64,000 bases of DNA, from contig OY282494.1 of the NCBI GenBank assembly GCA_958296385.1, positions 1,347,416 to 1,411,415 on the forward strand. Direction: 5' to 3'. The position numbers and the translations under genes were made by a program. Position 1 is the stretch's first letter; the number at the start of each line of letters is the position of its first letter. Shown here in pieces: positions 31,093 through 35,754 of the stretch. Origin of the DNA: an uncultured Dehalococcoidia bacterium (GTDB lineage Bacteria > Chloroflexota > Dehalococcoidia > Lucifugimonadales > UBA3495). The notes under the pieces were generated by a model. That model did no database searches, was not told the origin of the DNA, and saw nothing but the letters and a program-made list of their open reading frames with translations.

Positions 31093-32061
31093 TCAGGTTG
31101 TGGGCGTTTCGTCCGCTTCGTCCGAACCCAGGTTGAGCCGGCCCAGAATATCGGCCAGCGTGCCCTCCATGCCTGGGGTCAACTCTACCGGCTCTTCAAA
31201 TTCCTGGAATCGGTACTCGTTGCGCACCCGGTCGATGTAGCGTCTGGCCTCTTCGTTGCGTCCGGCTACCCGGTCGAGGGATTCTTGCAGGCGCGCGGCC
31301 TCTTCTTCGTATCGGGGGCGCAAGTCGGCCAAGTCTATGTCCAGGGAGTACAGGGCGCGCAGGCGACGCATTATGTCGTAGAAGGCGCGGTGGTCGGTGG
31401 TGATACCGAGCTGGCCGCCGCTGCTGCCGCTGAACGGGAACATGGGGGCCATTGCGCCGACCCGCACCATTTCCACGTCGGGGTGCTGGTAGTGGGCGAG
31501 GCTGACCAGGGCCATTCCGATGGTAGGGCCCTGGCGCTGCTGGGAGCCGTAGCTGGAGAACAGCATACCGTGTTCGCGCAGCGTGTCGGCCATGGCGGCC
31601 TTGCTGTACACGCAGGAGATGCGGCGTTCCAGCTCCGGCGGCGCCGGGCCGTTGTAGCCCTCAACGGCGGCGATTTTGGGGTTGCCCAGGGCGGCCACCG
31701 CCTCAAAGAACGCCTGGCCGTACAAGTCAATGCGATACCAGGGTTCGATGCCGAGGAAAATAACCACGCCGTCGCCGGCGTCCCAAAAGCCGTTGTCCCA
31801 CTGCATGGGACGGCTGGGCAATCCATCCTCAAAGGCGGCCCGGGGACGATAGACGTCGTGGGTGCCGGCGACCTGAAACGGGAAGCACATACGGGAGACT
31901 TCCTCGCTCATGCGGCCGATGCGCCGGGCCGACAGCTTGTCAATTAACCAGCGCGGCATCCCGCTGGAGATGTTTCCCCCATCGGACCACTGCCGTCGCC
32001 AGCCCGCGAGGAGTACGCGGGCCGACGGCGTTTCGTCCAGTGCAATCAGCGATTCCGCCAT
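31093..32061 (-). CDS. PAC2-family protein
   Basis: 322 aa. The opening VLLAGWRRQWSDGGNISSGMPRWLI is characteristic of the PAC2 (proteasome-assembly-chaperone-like) family found in archaea, actinobacteria and Chloroflexota. A central Gly/Ser-rich loop (FPFSGSSGGQLGI) and a C-terminal coiled-coil-like charged region (residues 240-300) follow. Biochemical role unknown in bacteria. It starts 21 bases after the glutaredoxin-DinB gene on the same strand, so co-transcription is likely. Confidence 0.8.
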   Translation of the reverse strand: MAESLIALDETPSARVLLAGWRRQWSDGGNISSGMPRWLIDKLSARRIGRMSEEVSRMCFPFQVAGTHDVYRPRAAFEDGLPSRPMQWDNGFWDAGDGVVIFLGIEPWYRIDLYGQAFFEAVAALGNPKIAAVEGYNGPAPPELERRISCVYSKAAMADTLREHGMLFSSYGSQQRQGPTIGMALVSLAHYQHPDVEMVRVGAMAPMFPFSGSSGGQLGITTDHRAFYDIMRRLRALYSLDIDLADLRPRYEEEAARLQESLDRVAGRNEEARRYIDRVRNEYRFQEFEEPVELTPGMEGTLADILGRLNLGSDEADETPTT

Positions 32062-32082: not shown

Positions 32083-32862
32083 CTAGATTAGCTGGGAGGG
32101 CGTAAAGATGCCCTCCATGTCCGCAGCGGTGGCCGGCGTAGTGGCCGGCTGCTTCAGCTGGTCGTCCATGTACCAATAGACCTGTTTCAGGTGGTGCGTG
32201 CTGTGGCTGAGGATGATGTTGAGCAGCTCCAGCACGGTTACCTCGCCGCCGTAGTGCGCCGGCACAACCCGGTCAAAGCCCTCGGTATCGCCGCTGTTCA
32301 GGAATGTTGCGATTCCATCAATTACGCCCTGCGCGTAGTCGGCGATTTCGTCCGGCTTGACCAGATGGGCCAGGCTTTCCCGGCAGGCGCGCATATCCTC
32401 GGAGCTCATTGAGCCGCGGGTGCGGCTGGTGTAGGCCAGTTCCGGGAAGGACACGATGTGCACCAGGGTATCGCGGAGCAGCTCCGGGCGCCATTGGACG
32501 GGCTGGGCCAGCTGTTCTGCGCTGAGTTCGCAGGTGGCTCGGATGGCGGCGCCCAGGATGATGCGGTACTTGTCGGCCAGCCACGCGGTGCGGCCGGACA
32601 GGTCAATGGGCGCATCCTCCAGCCCCAGGGCCGGTATCAGCTTTTTGGGGTAGTAGCCGATTATCACCTCGGAGCCGTCAATGATGGTTACGGGAGCGGA
32701 CAGGACGCCGCGGGCTTTCAAGTCCGCGCGGGCGGCTTCGTCGGTCAGCAAGTCGTGGTGTTCATACTGAACACCGTTGGACGCGAGGAATTCCTCCAGC
32801 GTCCGGCAGCTGAATCAACCAGGGTTGGTATAAACGTGTACTGAGCGCACTGCGGTTGTCAT
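32083..32862 (-). CDS. Probable selenoprotein: glutaredoxin (UxxC) fused to DinB domain
   Basis: 259 codons with a single in-frame UGA at codon 16 (32815..32817). Read through it, residues 1-85 form a glutaredoxin: VHVYTNPG-U-FSC-RTLEEFL, cis-Pro loop LSAPVTIIDG, then VIIGYYPKKLI. UGA takes the place of the nucleophilic Cys of CxxC. Residues 90-255 are a DinB domain (RIILGAAIRATCEL; LLNIILSHSTHHLKQVYWYM). The ATG has AAGGGAGA upstream. A stem-loop lies 10 bases after the UGA. Without readthrough only a 222-aa frame from an internal in-frame start would be called. GMC oxidoreductase upstream and PAC2 downstream are on the same strand. An assembly error or a Cys-to-stop mutation is the alternative. 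Confidence 0.8.
32779..32804 (-). promoter_or_regulatory. Candidate bacterial SECIS hairpin
   Basis: In the transcript: GGACGC, a 2-base UG bulge, GAGG, loop AAUU, CCUC, GCGUCC. That is a 10-bp stem starting 10 bases after the UGA and with its loop 22 bases after it, within the known bSECIS spacing. The flush tetraloop lacks the G that SelB usually reads unless the top G-C pair opens (loop GAAUUC). The hairpin is coding sequence as well. Confidence 0.6.
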
Positions 32863-32921
32863 TGCGTGTCTCCCTTTTGAGTCCGGGTTTCCGGTCTGGC
32901 CGAGTTTCCAGTCCGGTGGAT

Positions 32922-34460
32922 TTACTTGCCGGCGCGGAACCAGTCCGACTTGCGCTCGGCAATCATTATGGTGGTGCAGTTGGTGTTGGCGCGGATGCAG
33001 TCGGGCATTACCGACGCATCGGCGACGTGGAGATTCTCCAGGCCGTGGACGTGGCAATGCTGGTCAACTACGGCCATGGGGTCGTCGGCGGCGCCCATTT
33101 TGCAGGTGCCGGAAATGTGCTGCGACGTGCTGACGGTGCGCTTGAGCCAGTCGTTCAGCGCCGCATCGCTTTCCAGGTCGGCGGGCAGCGGGTCGAGCAG
33201 CTCATCGGCCACGTCCTGGTAGTGTTCGCTGTCCAGCAGGTTGATGCACAGGCGCACGGCCTCGCGCATTCGCGACAGGTCAAACTCATCCTGGAAGTAG
33301 TTGTAGTTGAGAGCGGGCTGCTCGCCGGGGTCGGTGCTGGCCAGTTGCAGATGGCCTGACCCGACGGCCAGCTCCAGGATGCAGGTGAAACGGATGCCCT
33401 CGGCCTCCAATGGGTCGCCGGCGATGGGCGATGAGAAGGACGACTGCATAATCTGGATGTCGTTGCGCAGATGGCTGCCGGAGGCGGTGTAGCGCAGGCA
33501 AACCTGCGTGCGGGGCGCCTGCGCGTCCAGCGGGAAATCGTCTTTCACCTTTACGGGCACCCGGATGTTGGGGTGGTCGCGGAGATTCTGGCCGACGCCG
33601 GGGAGTTCGTGAATGACGGGAATACCCATCTCGCGCAGATGGGCGGCCGGGCCGACGCCGGAGAGGAGCAGCAGCTGGGGCGAACCGATGGCGCCGGAGC
33701 TGAGGATGATGTCGTCGGCATCAACGGTGAATACTTCGCCGCCGCTTTCAACCTCAACGCCAATTGCTTGCTTGCCCTCAAACACGATGCGACGGCACGT
33801 AACGTTGGGGCGAATCGTCAGGTTGAGGCGGTGCCGGGCCTCGCGGAGGTAGGTCAGGGAAGTGCTCATGCGCACGCCGTTGGGGTTGTTCATCGGCACC
33901 GGGCCGACGCCGCCGGAATCGGGGTGGTTCATGTCCGGGTCGTGGGGGTGGCCGGCGTTGCGGCAGGCGTTCCAAAAGGCGACCTGGGCGGGCAGCCAGT
34001 CCTCCTGCCGGTGGCGGCGCACGGGGATTGGCCCGGTGTTGCCGTGGAAGTCATCGGAGATGTCGGTGTCGGTTTCCAGCTTGCGGAAGTAGGGCAGGCA
34101 GTCGGTGAACTTCCACTCGTCGTTGCCCAGCGCGGCCCAGGCGTCGTAGTCCTCCGGCACGCCCCGGAGCAGTACCTGGCCGTTGATGGCCGAGGAACCG
34201 CCGACTACCCGGCCCCGGGGCACCGGCATCTGCTGCTCCTGCCCCGGATTCTGGGCCCAGAAAGTCCAGTTGTGCGGGGCGTCGATGGCGGAGGCCGTCT
34301 GGTCGTAGCCGTATTTGAGATCGTCCGGGTACAGTTCGAAATCGGGGTAGTCCGGCCCGGCCTCCAGCACCAGCACCGAGCGGTCGGGGTCTTCCGACAG
34401 CCGGGCGGCCATCGTGCAGCCGGCGGAGCCGGCGCCGATGATTATAACGTCGTACTTCAT
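32922..34460 (-). CDS. GMC-family FAD oxidoreductase
   Basis: 512 aa. N-terminal FAD-binding GAGSAGCTMAARL (residues 9-21) and VLEAGPDYP; GMC signature 1 RGRVVGGSSAINGQ; signature 2 SSGAIGSPQLLLLSG; active-site His in STSQHISGTCKMG and the C-terminal ANTNCTTIMIAER. It resembles choline and alcohol dehydrogenases of the group. It oxidises an alcohol with FAD and an unknown acceptor. AGGAGG precedes the ATG. The glutaredoxin-DinB gene follows 59 bases later. Confidence 0.9.
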   Translation of the reverse strand: MKYDVIIIGAGSAGCTMAARLSEDPDRSVLVLEAGPDYPDFELYPDDLKYGYDQTASAIDAPHNWTFWAQNPGQEQQMPVPRGRVVGGSSAINGQVLLRGVPEDYDAWAALGNDEWKFTDCLPYFRKLETDTDISDDFHGNTGPIPVRRHRQEDWLPAQVAFWNACRNAGHPHDPDMNHPDSGGVGPVPMNNPNGVRMSTSLTYLREARHRLNLTIRPNVTCRRIVFEGKQAIGVEVESGGEVFTVDADDIILSSGAIGSPQLLLLSGVGPAAHLREMGIPVIHELPGVGQNLRDHPNIRVPVKVKDDFPLDAQAPRTQVCLRYTASGSHLRNDIQIMQSSFSSPIAGDPLEAEGIRFTCILELAVGSGHLQLASTDPGEQPALNYNYFQDEFDLSRMREAVRLCINLLDSEHYQDVADELLDPLPADLESDAALNDWLKRTVSTSQHISGTCKMGAADDPMAVVDQHCHVHGLENLHVADASVMPDCIRANTNCTTIMIAERKSDWFRAGK

Positions 34461-34645
34461 TGCGATACGCCTCCTGATGGACGCTGGAATAGTTTAGCTA
34501 TGCGCCGGATTATCGCCGCAAACGCCGCCGCCGGCAAGGGCCCGCAGGCTTTTGCGGAAAATTGCGCAAGCCGAATCCGGCAATGGTGCGCTATAATGAC
34601 GGCAGTTGCAATCCCCGGCGGGGCTTGCCATGGGCCGTTATCTCA

Positions 34646-35206
34646 ATGATTAACAAGTTGCGAGGTCTGACGGGCAAAGTTAAGGAACTGTTCGTTCGCT
34701 TGCTGATTTTCTCCGCGCAAACTATTCCGGAAAACCGCGAAGCAATCTGGAGTGTTCCGACACCGCTCAAAACCGCCTACTTTGTCGTTGCCATCCTGCT
34801 GTGGCTGCCCGTTCTAGTTGACATCGCAGCTGAAAACATGGCCGCGGCGACGGGCAATCACTGGCAGCGGATAGTCGGCACAGTAGTGAGGGAGTCGGCA
34901 ACGGAGTTTGCGCCCGCTGGCATAGGCATCGCCATCGCCGCGCTGGTAATCGTACAAGGAGGCTTTTTAATCATGTCGCTATACCACGCCATAGTGAACC
35001 GATTCGTGTTGCCTGTAATCGCAGAGCACAAAGCAGCCGGCCGCGCCGAGGGCCAAGCCGAGGCCCGTGCCGAGGGCCGGGCTGAGGGTCGCGCCGAGGG
35101 TCGCGCGGAAAATAATCAGGAATGGCTGGATTGGCTGCGACGACGTGCCGATGCCGAGGCGAAAGGTGAACCTTTCGACGAACCGCCGCCCAGCGATGGA
35201 GCATAG
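34646..35206 (+). CDS. Two-TM protein with C-terminal EG-repeat module (copy 1 of 3)
   Basis: 186 aa. Two hydrophobic helices (residues 43-63 and 90-112), then the module MSLYHAIVNRFVLPVIAEH, an Ala-Glu-Gly repeat region (RAEG units) and the tail EWLDWLRRRADAEAKGEPFD. The module starts at an internal ATG (34973) with its own AAGGAGG, so it may also be made separately. The same module recurs twice downstream without the membrane part. A TATAAT is at 34592. Function unknown; the repeat region may form a helix or coiled coil. Confidence 0.65.
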   Translation: MINKLRGLTGKVKELFVRLLIFSAQTIPENREAIWSVPTPLKTAYFVVAILLWLPVLVDIAAENMAAATGNHWQRIVGTVVRESATEFAPAGIGIAIAALVIVQGGFLIMSLYHAIVNRFVLPVIAEHKAAGRAEGQAEARAEGRAEGRAEGRAENNQEWLDWLRRRADAEAKGEPFDEPPPSDGA

Positions 35207-35484: not shown

Positions 35485-35754
35485 ATGTCGCTATACCACG
35501 CCATTGTGAACCGATTCGTGCTGCCCGTCATCGCAGAGCACGAAGCAAAGGGTTATGCCATAGGCTATGTTGAAGGCCGCGCCGAGGGTTACGCTGAGGG
35601 TTACGCCCAGGGTTATGCCCAGGGTTATGCCCAGGGTTATGCCCAGGGCCTTGCCGAGGCTCGTCAGGAATGGCGGGATTGGCTGCAACGACGTACCGAT
35701 GCCGAGGCCAGGGGTGAACCTTTTGACGAACCGCCGCCTGGGGATGGCGTCTGA
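35485..35754 (+). CDS. EG-repeat module protein (copy 3 of 3)
   Basis: 89 aa. The same ends as copy 2, but the middle is expanded to GY-x-EG and YAQG repeats (four QGYA units in a row, each 12 bases). Copy-number change of this in-frame unit explains the length difference. A partial fourth junction (ACATCGCTCTATACCGGAGA) follows at 35761, suggesting another copy was lost. Confidence 0.65.
   Translation: MSLYHAIVNRFVLPVIAEHEAKGYAIGYVEGRAEGYAEGYAQGYAQGYAQGYAQGLAEARQEWRDWLQRRTDAEARGEPFDEPPPGDGV

Follow-up and report, generated by a model that had tools for sequence, protein, structure and literature searches.

The question raised by this locus is whether a UGA codon near the start of a glutaredoxin-DinB fusion gene (Grx-DinB) ends translation or is read through as selenocysteine (Sec). 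The gene lies on the minus strand of a 64,000-nucleotide stretch of DNA from an uncultured Dehalococcoidia bacterium (the window, meaning the whole stretch that was analyzed). In our interpretation, it encodes a Sec-x-x-Cys Grx-DinB selenoprotein in which the UGA is decoded as Sec and the glutaredoxin domain serves a metal-dependent DinB site; we put the probability of this joint reading at roughly 80%.

Gene structure and domain composition

By direct check of the sequence, the frame comprises 259 codons from the ATG start (32862–32860) to the true stop TAG (32085–32083), and its sole in-frame stop is the UGA at codon 16 (32817–32815), embedded in the peptide VHVYTNPG-U-FSC. This bears out what the sequence-only reading had claimed for the gene: a single in-frame stop that sits exactly at the first Cys position of the glutaredoxin CxxC motif (here UxxC), and a start codon with a ribosome-binding site, the latter represented by a Shine-Dalgarno-like AGGGAG (32875–32870). 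The same reading had foreseen that standard gene callers would start internally and lose the redox domain. A conventional ORF call does begin at the internal TTG 32751 and drops residues 1–37 together with the redox site; standard annotation would mis-call Grx-DinB genes systematically.

Table 1 Features of the Grx-DinB locus, in window coordinates.
Feature	Position	Strand	Remarks
Grx-DinB selenoprotein gene (putative)	32083..32862	(-)	259 aa with UGA = Sec, stop TAG
In-frame UGA (putative Sec16), first position of UxxC	32815..32817	(-)	Codon 16
Resolving Cys19 codon TGC	32806..32808	(-)	Invariant across subfamilies
Shine-Dalgarno-like AGGGAG	32870..32875	(-)	Upstream of ATG; basis: sequence
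Glutaredoxin (thioredoxin-fold) domain, residues 8–80, cis-Pro57	32623..32841	(-)	Pfam PF00462; structure match 7c10
DinB four-helix domain, residues 89–242, His H135, H220, H224	32137..32598	(-)	Pfam PF12867/PF05163; 2p1a
Putative bacterial SECIS: outer helix GCUG/CGGU and apical hairpin GGACG...CGUCC (32779–32804)	32773..32810	(-)	
GMC-family flavin oxidoreductase, conserved upstream neighbour	32922..34460	(-)	59 nt gap
PAC2-domain protein, conserved downstream neighbour	31093..32061	(-)	

Both domains are recognized by Pfam above the respective cut-offs, Glutaredoxin (PF00462) with 38.7 bits (cut-off 22.9) over residues 8–64 and DinB_2 with 31.1 bits (cut-off 24.8), with the DinB match lying within residues 112–233. 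The AlphaFold2 model (pLDDT 90, pTM 0.84) predicts two known domains. Its glutaredoxin part is most similar to cGrx1 (7c10/7c12; Z 13.9 and 1.0 Å over 75 residues for 7c10), and we take these two structures to be the Cys form of the Clostridium oremlandii Sec protein cGrx1. The best match of the modelled DinB part is 2p1a (Z 15.8, 2.6 Å over 150 residues); further matches are YfiT (1rxq, Z 13.5), mycothiol maleylpyruvate isomerase (2nsg, Z 12.9) and the M. tuberculosis mycothiol S-transferase (8f5v, Z 12.6). Whole glutathione S-transferases were also returned by Foldseek at 12–17 Å rmsd, and we do not count these rows as evidence for a GST-like domain arrangement.

Residues that do not vary among 26 sequences from every fusion subfamily include G15, U16, C19, P57, G69 and R125 as well as H135, H220, H224, Q227 and Y229. 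The N-terminal part can be assigned to the glutaredoxins by its Pfam score, UxxC motif, cis-Pro and fold, and the C-terminal part to the DinB superfamily by its Pfam score, four-helix fold and three conserved His. With Sec16, Cys19, cis-Pro57 and the three DinB His all invariant, the earlier description of two otherwise intact domains holds, and judging from sequence both active sites look intact.

Conservation of the UGA codon

A scan of one genome per species (84,980 species) retrieved 42 loci with relatives that are 60–89% identical, nearly all of them from Dehalococcoidia/SAR202 MAGs (Chloroflexota). The codon at the site is TGA in 41/41 relatives that cover it, and their genes contain no further in-frame stop; these counts do not represent independent events, as the loci belong mostly to one GTDB family. 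One contig (L029) is binned as Mesorhizobium and carries a SAR202-type gene with flanks close to those of L041; it is probably misbinned.

In addition, a profile search covered 400 phylum and 250 order genomes, and 68/250 of the latter matched, almost always with exactly one internal TGA. All 20 divergent fusions that were read (about 25–35% identical) carry TGA at the first motif position: 18 come from the same order (L088–L105; motifs U-FTC or U-ATC), and the remaining two (L051, L052; motif U-SSC) belong to other families within the phylum. Two divergent fusions appear damaged, L092 by an extra in-frame TAG and L100 by a frameshift inside the DinB part, unless these are assembly errors. The profile search found no Cys form of the fusion among the 400 phylum and 250 order genomes, and Cys at the Sec position was seen only in single-domain glutaredoxins (L106, L053, L055). 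Other single-domain glutaredoxins (L107–L123, with U-GPC or U-HFC, and L054) have TGA at the same motif position. As a side observation, single-domain Sec glutaredoxins (U-GPC, U-HFC, U-LQC) are widespread in the same Chloroflexota order and carry a hairpin of the same design, and the starts of those listed here (L107–L123, L054) would be lost by gene callers.

Aligned with its homologues, the site that the sequence-only reading had proposed to inspect for Cys or UGA is therefore UGA in every fusion, close and divergent. A base-calling error is untenable because TGA occurs at this site in dozens of independent assemblies, and the same codon in 41/41 relatives and 20 divergent fusions rules out a sequencing error or a pseudogene. 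Kept without exception in the relatives, and with no Cys fusion found, Sec seems to be obligatory in Grx-DinB as far as the sequences tell.

Sec machinery and the hairpin downstream of the UGA

The host genome (3.30 Mb, one contig, 99.95% complete) contains the complete set of selA, selB, selC and selD functions on which the Sec proposal had been made to depend: SelA (536.6 bits, cut-off 267.9), SelB (357 bits, cut-off 242), SelD (374.1 bits, cut-off 125) and a tRNA-Sec with UCA anticodon (66.4 bits, cut-off 47). SelD is itself encoded by a selenoprotein gene with an in-frame UGA (L124; genome C1, 1766127–1767047, minus strand). SelB scores above the cut-off in 36/43 carrier genomes and does not reach it in 7/43, and a strong tRNA-Sec match is absent in 8/43; several of these carriers are small fragmented MAGs. 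A search of the host genome for other genes combining GGTTGA with the divergent-subfamily hairpin gave no match and hence no further Sec client by this route.

Downstream of the UGA, nested helices are predicted for the window sequence, and the apical stem begins 10 nt away, in line with the stem-loop described before at this distance. Taken alone, this fold is modestly better than shuffles (z −1.96), and the case for the hairpin is therefore carried by comparative evidence. In the window's subfamily, 95.7% of hairpin cells pair, compared with 34–53% when the partner strand is slid, and covariation is confined to one pair (columns 39–56; G-C in 19 sequences, U-A in 7). Divergent fusions and solo glutaredoxins form the stem [AG][CU]GAAAG / CUUUC[GA][UC], 15 nt after the UGA. 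Among distinct sequences, its first pair occurs as A-U (12) or G-C (12) and its second as C-G (20) or U-A (12). The covariation score of this group, 0.241, lies above the value for shuffles (0.144; 0/500) and above all slid versions (no more than 0.090). Furthermore, synonymous codon identity amounts to 0.69 over codons 17–36 and to 0.49 over codons 37–259.

According to published rules, a bacterial SECIS (bSECIS) has a loop of 3–9 nt with G in the first two positions, a stem of 4–16 bp, a distance of 16–37 nt from the UGA and an MFE ≤ −7.5 kcal/mol (PMC13188914); we applied these rules by hand. The divergent fusions fit them with a 7 bp stem and the loop AGUUU at 22 nt from the UGA, and in the divergent fusions and solo glutaredoxins the loops AGUUU and UGUAU both have G at position 2 at this distance. 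In the family register, the window hairpin fits as well (loop GGAAU, 20 nt, −12.5 kcal/mol), whereas in its own MFE register (−18.6 kcal/mol) the apical loop AAUU has no G and departs from the rule; a few relatives also have no loop G. Overall, the putative SECIS agrees with most of the rules, and both the compensatory changes and the slowed synonymous change support it, so that the stem-loop of the sequence-only reading stands as a conserved element. Along with the Sec machinery, the conserved hairpin supports the view that the UGA is under selection for readthrough at the catalytic position, and residue 16 is almost certainly selenocysteine.

Gene neighbourhood

A GMC gene adjoins Grx-DinB on the same strand in 30/42 loci, upstream in 10 (gaps of 29–123 nt) and downstream in 20 (gaps of 53–323 nt); in one further locus, it lies upstream on the opposite strand. 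The 11 GMC genes in the 3.3 Mb of the host genome correspond to about 0.04 expected by chance per 10.8-kb locus, a comparison to be read with the non-independence of the loci in mind. A PAC2-domain gene is found nearby in 17/42 loci. The divergent fusions L088–L105 lack this GMC gene nearby, and the GMC link thus belongs to the window's subfamily. The GMC neighbour in the window scores 424.5 bits against the NCBIfam model of the mycofactocin dehydrogenase MftG (cut-off 387.45). On the plus strand, ORFs 34562–35206 and 35485–35754 are related and have repetitive tails (AEGRAEGRAEG, AQGYAQGYAQG), the first of them without a Pfam match.

Alternative readings

Bacteria that read UGA as an amino acid do occur, and with this precedent the codon could be reassigned or suppressed as another residue, e.g. 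Trp or Gly. Within the window, however, TGA ends 10/42 long non-overlapping ORFs, the genome holds the full Sec machinery, and the site aligns with the catalytic Cys/Sec position. Given how often TGA serves as a stop in the window, and given the complete Sec machinery, we reject reassignment and consider it extremely improbable. The UGA might instead be a real stop, which would leave a conserved 15-codon leader ending in VHVYTNPG, followed by an internally started DinB ORF without an active redox site; the internal TTG indeed gives an ORF of 222 aa. Against this stands the nature of the leader, whose residues form beta-strand 1 of the glutaredoxin fold in the model and whose V8, V10, Y11 and T12 are conserved as amino acids while their third bases vary freely. 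Moreover, the frame with Cys19, cis-Pro57 and the UxxC motif runs on unbroken, residue 38 at the internal start is not conserved (L, I or V), and the stop codon at the Grx-DinB site is UGA in every case, never UAA or UAG. A genuine stop is therefore very unlikely.

The third alternative accepts Sec decoding and concerns the function: the protein could reduce disulfides or peroxides in general, with DinB as a mere docking or dimerization module and no S-transferase chemistry. The glutaredoxin domain holds the full set of catalytic residues, and solo Sec-glutaredoxin relatives exist within the same clade. On the other hand, the three His of the DinB domain and Q227 are among the few residues that stay invariant in deeply diverged fusions, which suggests a working metal site. 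We regard this reductase function as possible, but would not expect it.

Proposed mechanism and small-thiol partner

For the Sec-dependent Grx-DinB enzyme, SelB and tRNA-Sec would decode UGA codon 16 as selenocysteine, directed by the mRNA hairpin 10 nt downstream. The Sec16 selenolate would then attack, with Cys19 as the resolving thiol, while the three-His DinB site may bind a metal and activate a thiol or substrate. Thiol/selenol exchange by the tethered glutaredoxin could supply or recycle the nucleophile for an S-transferase- or isomerase-like DinB site. A likely task would be to clear electrophiles or oxidants that flavin enzymes produce, the neighbouring GMC oxidoreductase being one example; with flavin oxidases as the source, the targets would be aldehydes or oxidants. 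The earlier idea of a thiol transferase or reductase with a Sec nucleophile would fit this scheme.

The DinB enzymes whose activity is known work with GSH, BSH or MSH (PMC4360819). In five carrier genomes, neither BshC (bacillithiol) nor MshC (mycothiol) nor GCS2-type GshA (glutathione) was found above the cut-off; for glutathione, the search covered GCS2-type GshA only. The two MshC-like matches in the host genome were rejected, as both are cysteinyl-tRNA synthetases. A second cysteinyl-tRNA synthetase-like protein of the host is 783 aa long and extends at its C-terminus into a glycosyltransferase-like part (L129:668–3016, minus strand; genome C1, ~398–402 kb). Because the glutaredoxin domain resembles YruB and NrdH and none of these markers for the three small thiols was found, the enzyme would more likely be independent of glutathione and recharged by a thioredoxin-reductase-type system. 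Going further, Grx-DinB could work as a seleno counterpart of glutathione S-transferase, complete in itself and likewise built from a thioredoxin fold and a helical domain. The tethered Sec-glutaredoxin would then stand in for the missing small thiol and serve the metal-dependent DinB site as a covalent nucleophile or carrier, in bacteria that lack the known low-molecular-weight thiols; we consider this extension speculative and unlikely as it stands.

Relation to known systems

The closest solved structure, cGrx1, shares the UxxC motif and the glutaredoxin fold (38–39% identity over 73–75 residues, E 2.9e-13), but the solved chain is a single glutaredoxin domain of 84 residues without DinB. 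The C. oremlandii glutaredoxin was described as a selenoprotein, according to the mention of Kim et al. 2011 in PMC13188914. Uxx-star/YruB-type proteins (NCBIfam NF041212, NF041114, TIGR02196) likewise have the glutaredoxin fold, and in Uxx-star the Sec lies near the N-terminus; however, these models all match below their curated cut-offs, and none of them includes a DinB fusion. The best-scoring one is YruB with 53.6 bits (cut-off 88.55), and no NCBIfam model matches the Grx-DinB architecture above its cut-off.

The DinB thiol S-transferases (YfiT/BstA, Mst) and mycothiol maleylpyruvate isomerase resemble the second domain in their four-helix fold and three-His site, but the enzymes cited use a free thiol (BSH, MSH, GSH; PMC4360819), whereas Grx-DinB has a Sec-glutaredoxin in cis. 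Thioredoxin-fold selenoproteins joined to extra domains were also reported from ocean metagenomes (PMC2398784); those comprise Prx, Prx-like, UGSC and SelD proteins, and Grx-DinB is not among them. The 119 families of prokaryotic selenoproteins listed in 2026 (PMC13188914) include glutaredoxin and Uxx-star entries but no DinB fusion. The literature search combining DinB with selenoprotein or selenocysteine returned a single match, an E. coli mercury transcriptomics paper; as subscription literature lay partly outside this search, an earlier description is possible. Sec glutaredoxins and fusions of thioredoxin-fold selenoproteins are already known, and the new part seems to be the domain architecture with its seemingly obligatory Sec.

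Altogether, Grx-DinB looks like a hitherto undescribed family of selenoproteins in uncultured marine bacteria, one that directly connects Sec chemistry with the thiol-transferase fold of DinB. Sec machinery was reported to be enriched in sponge symbionts (PMC5649159), and Grx-DinB is a candidate client for it. The family also makes the replacement of glutathione-type thiols in carrier bacteria testable.
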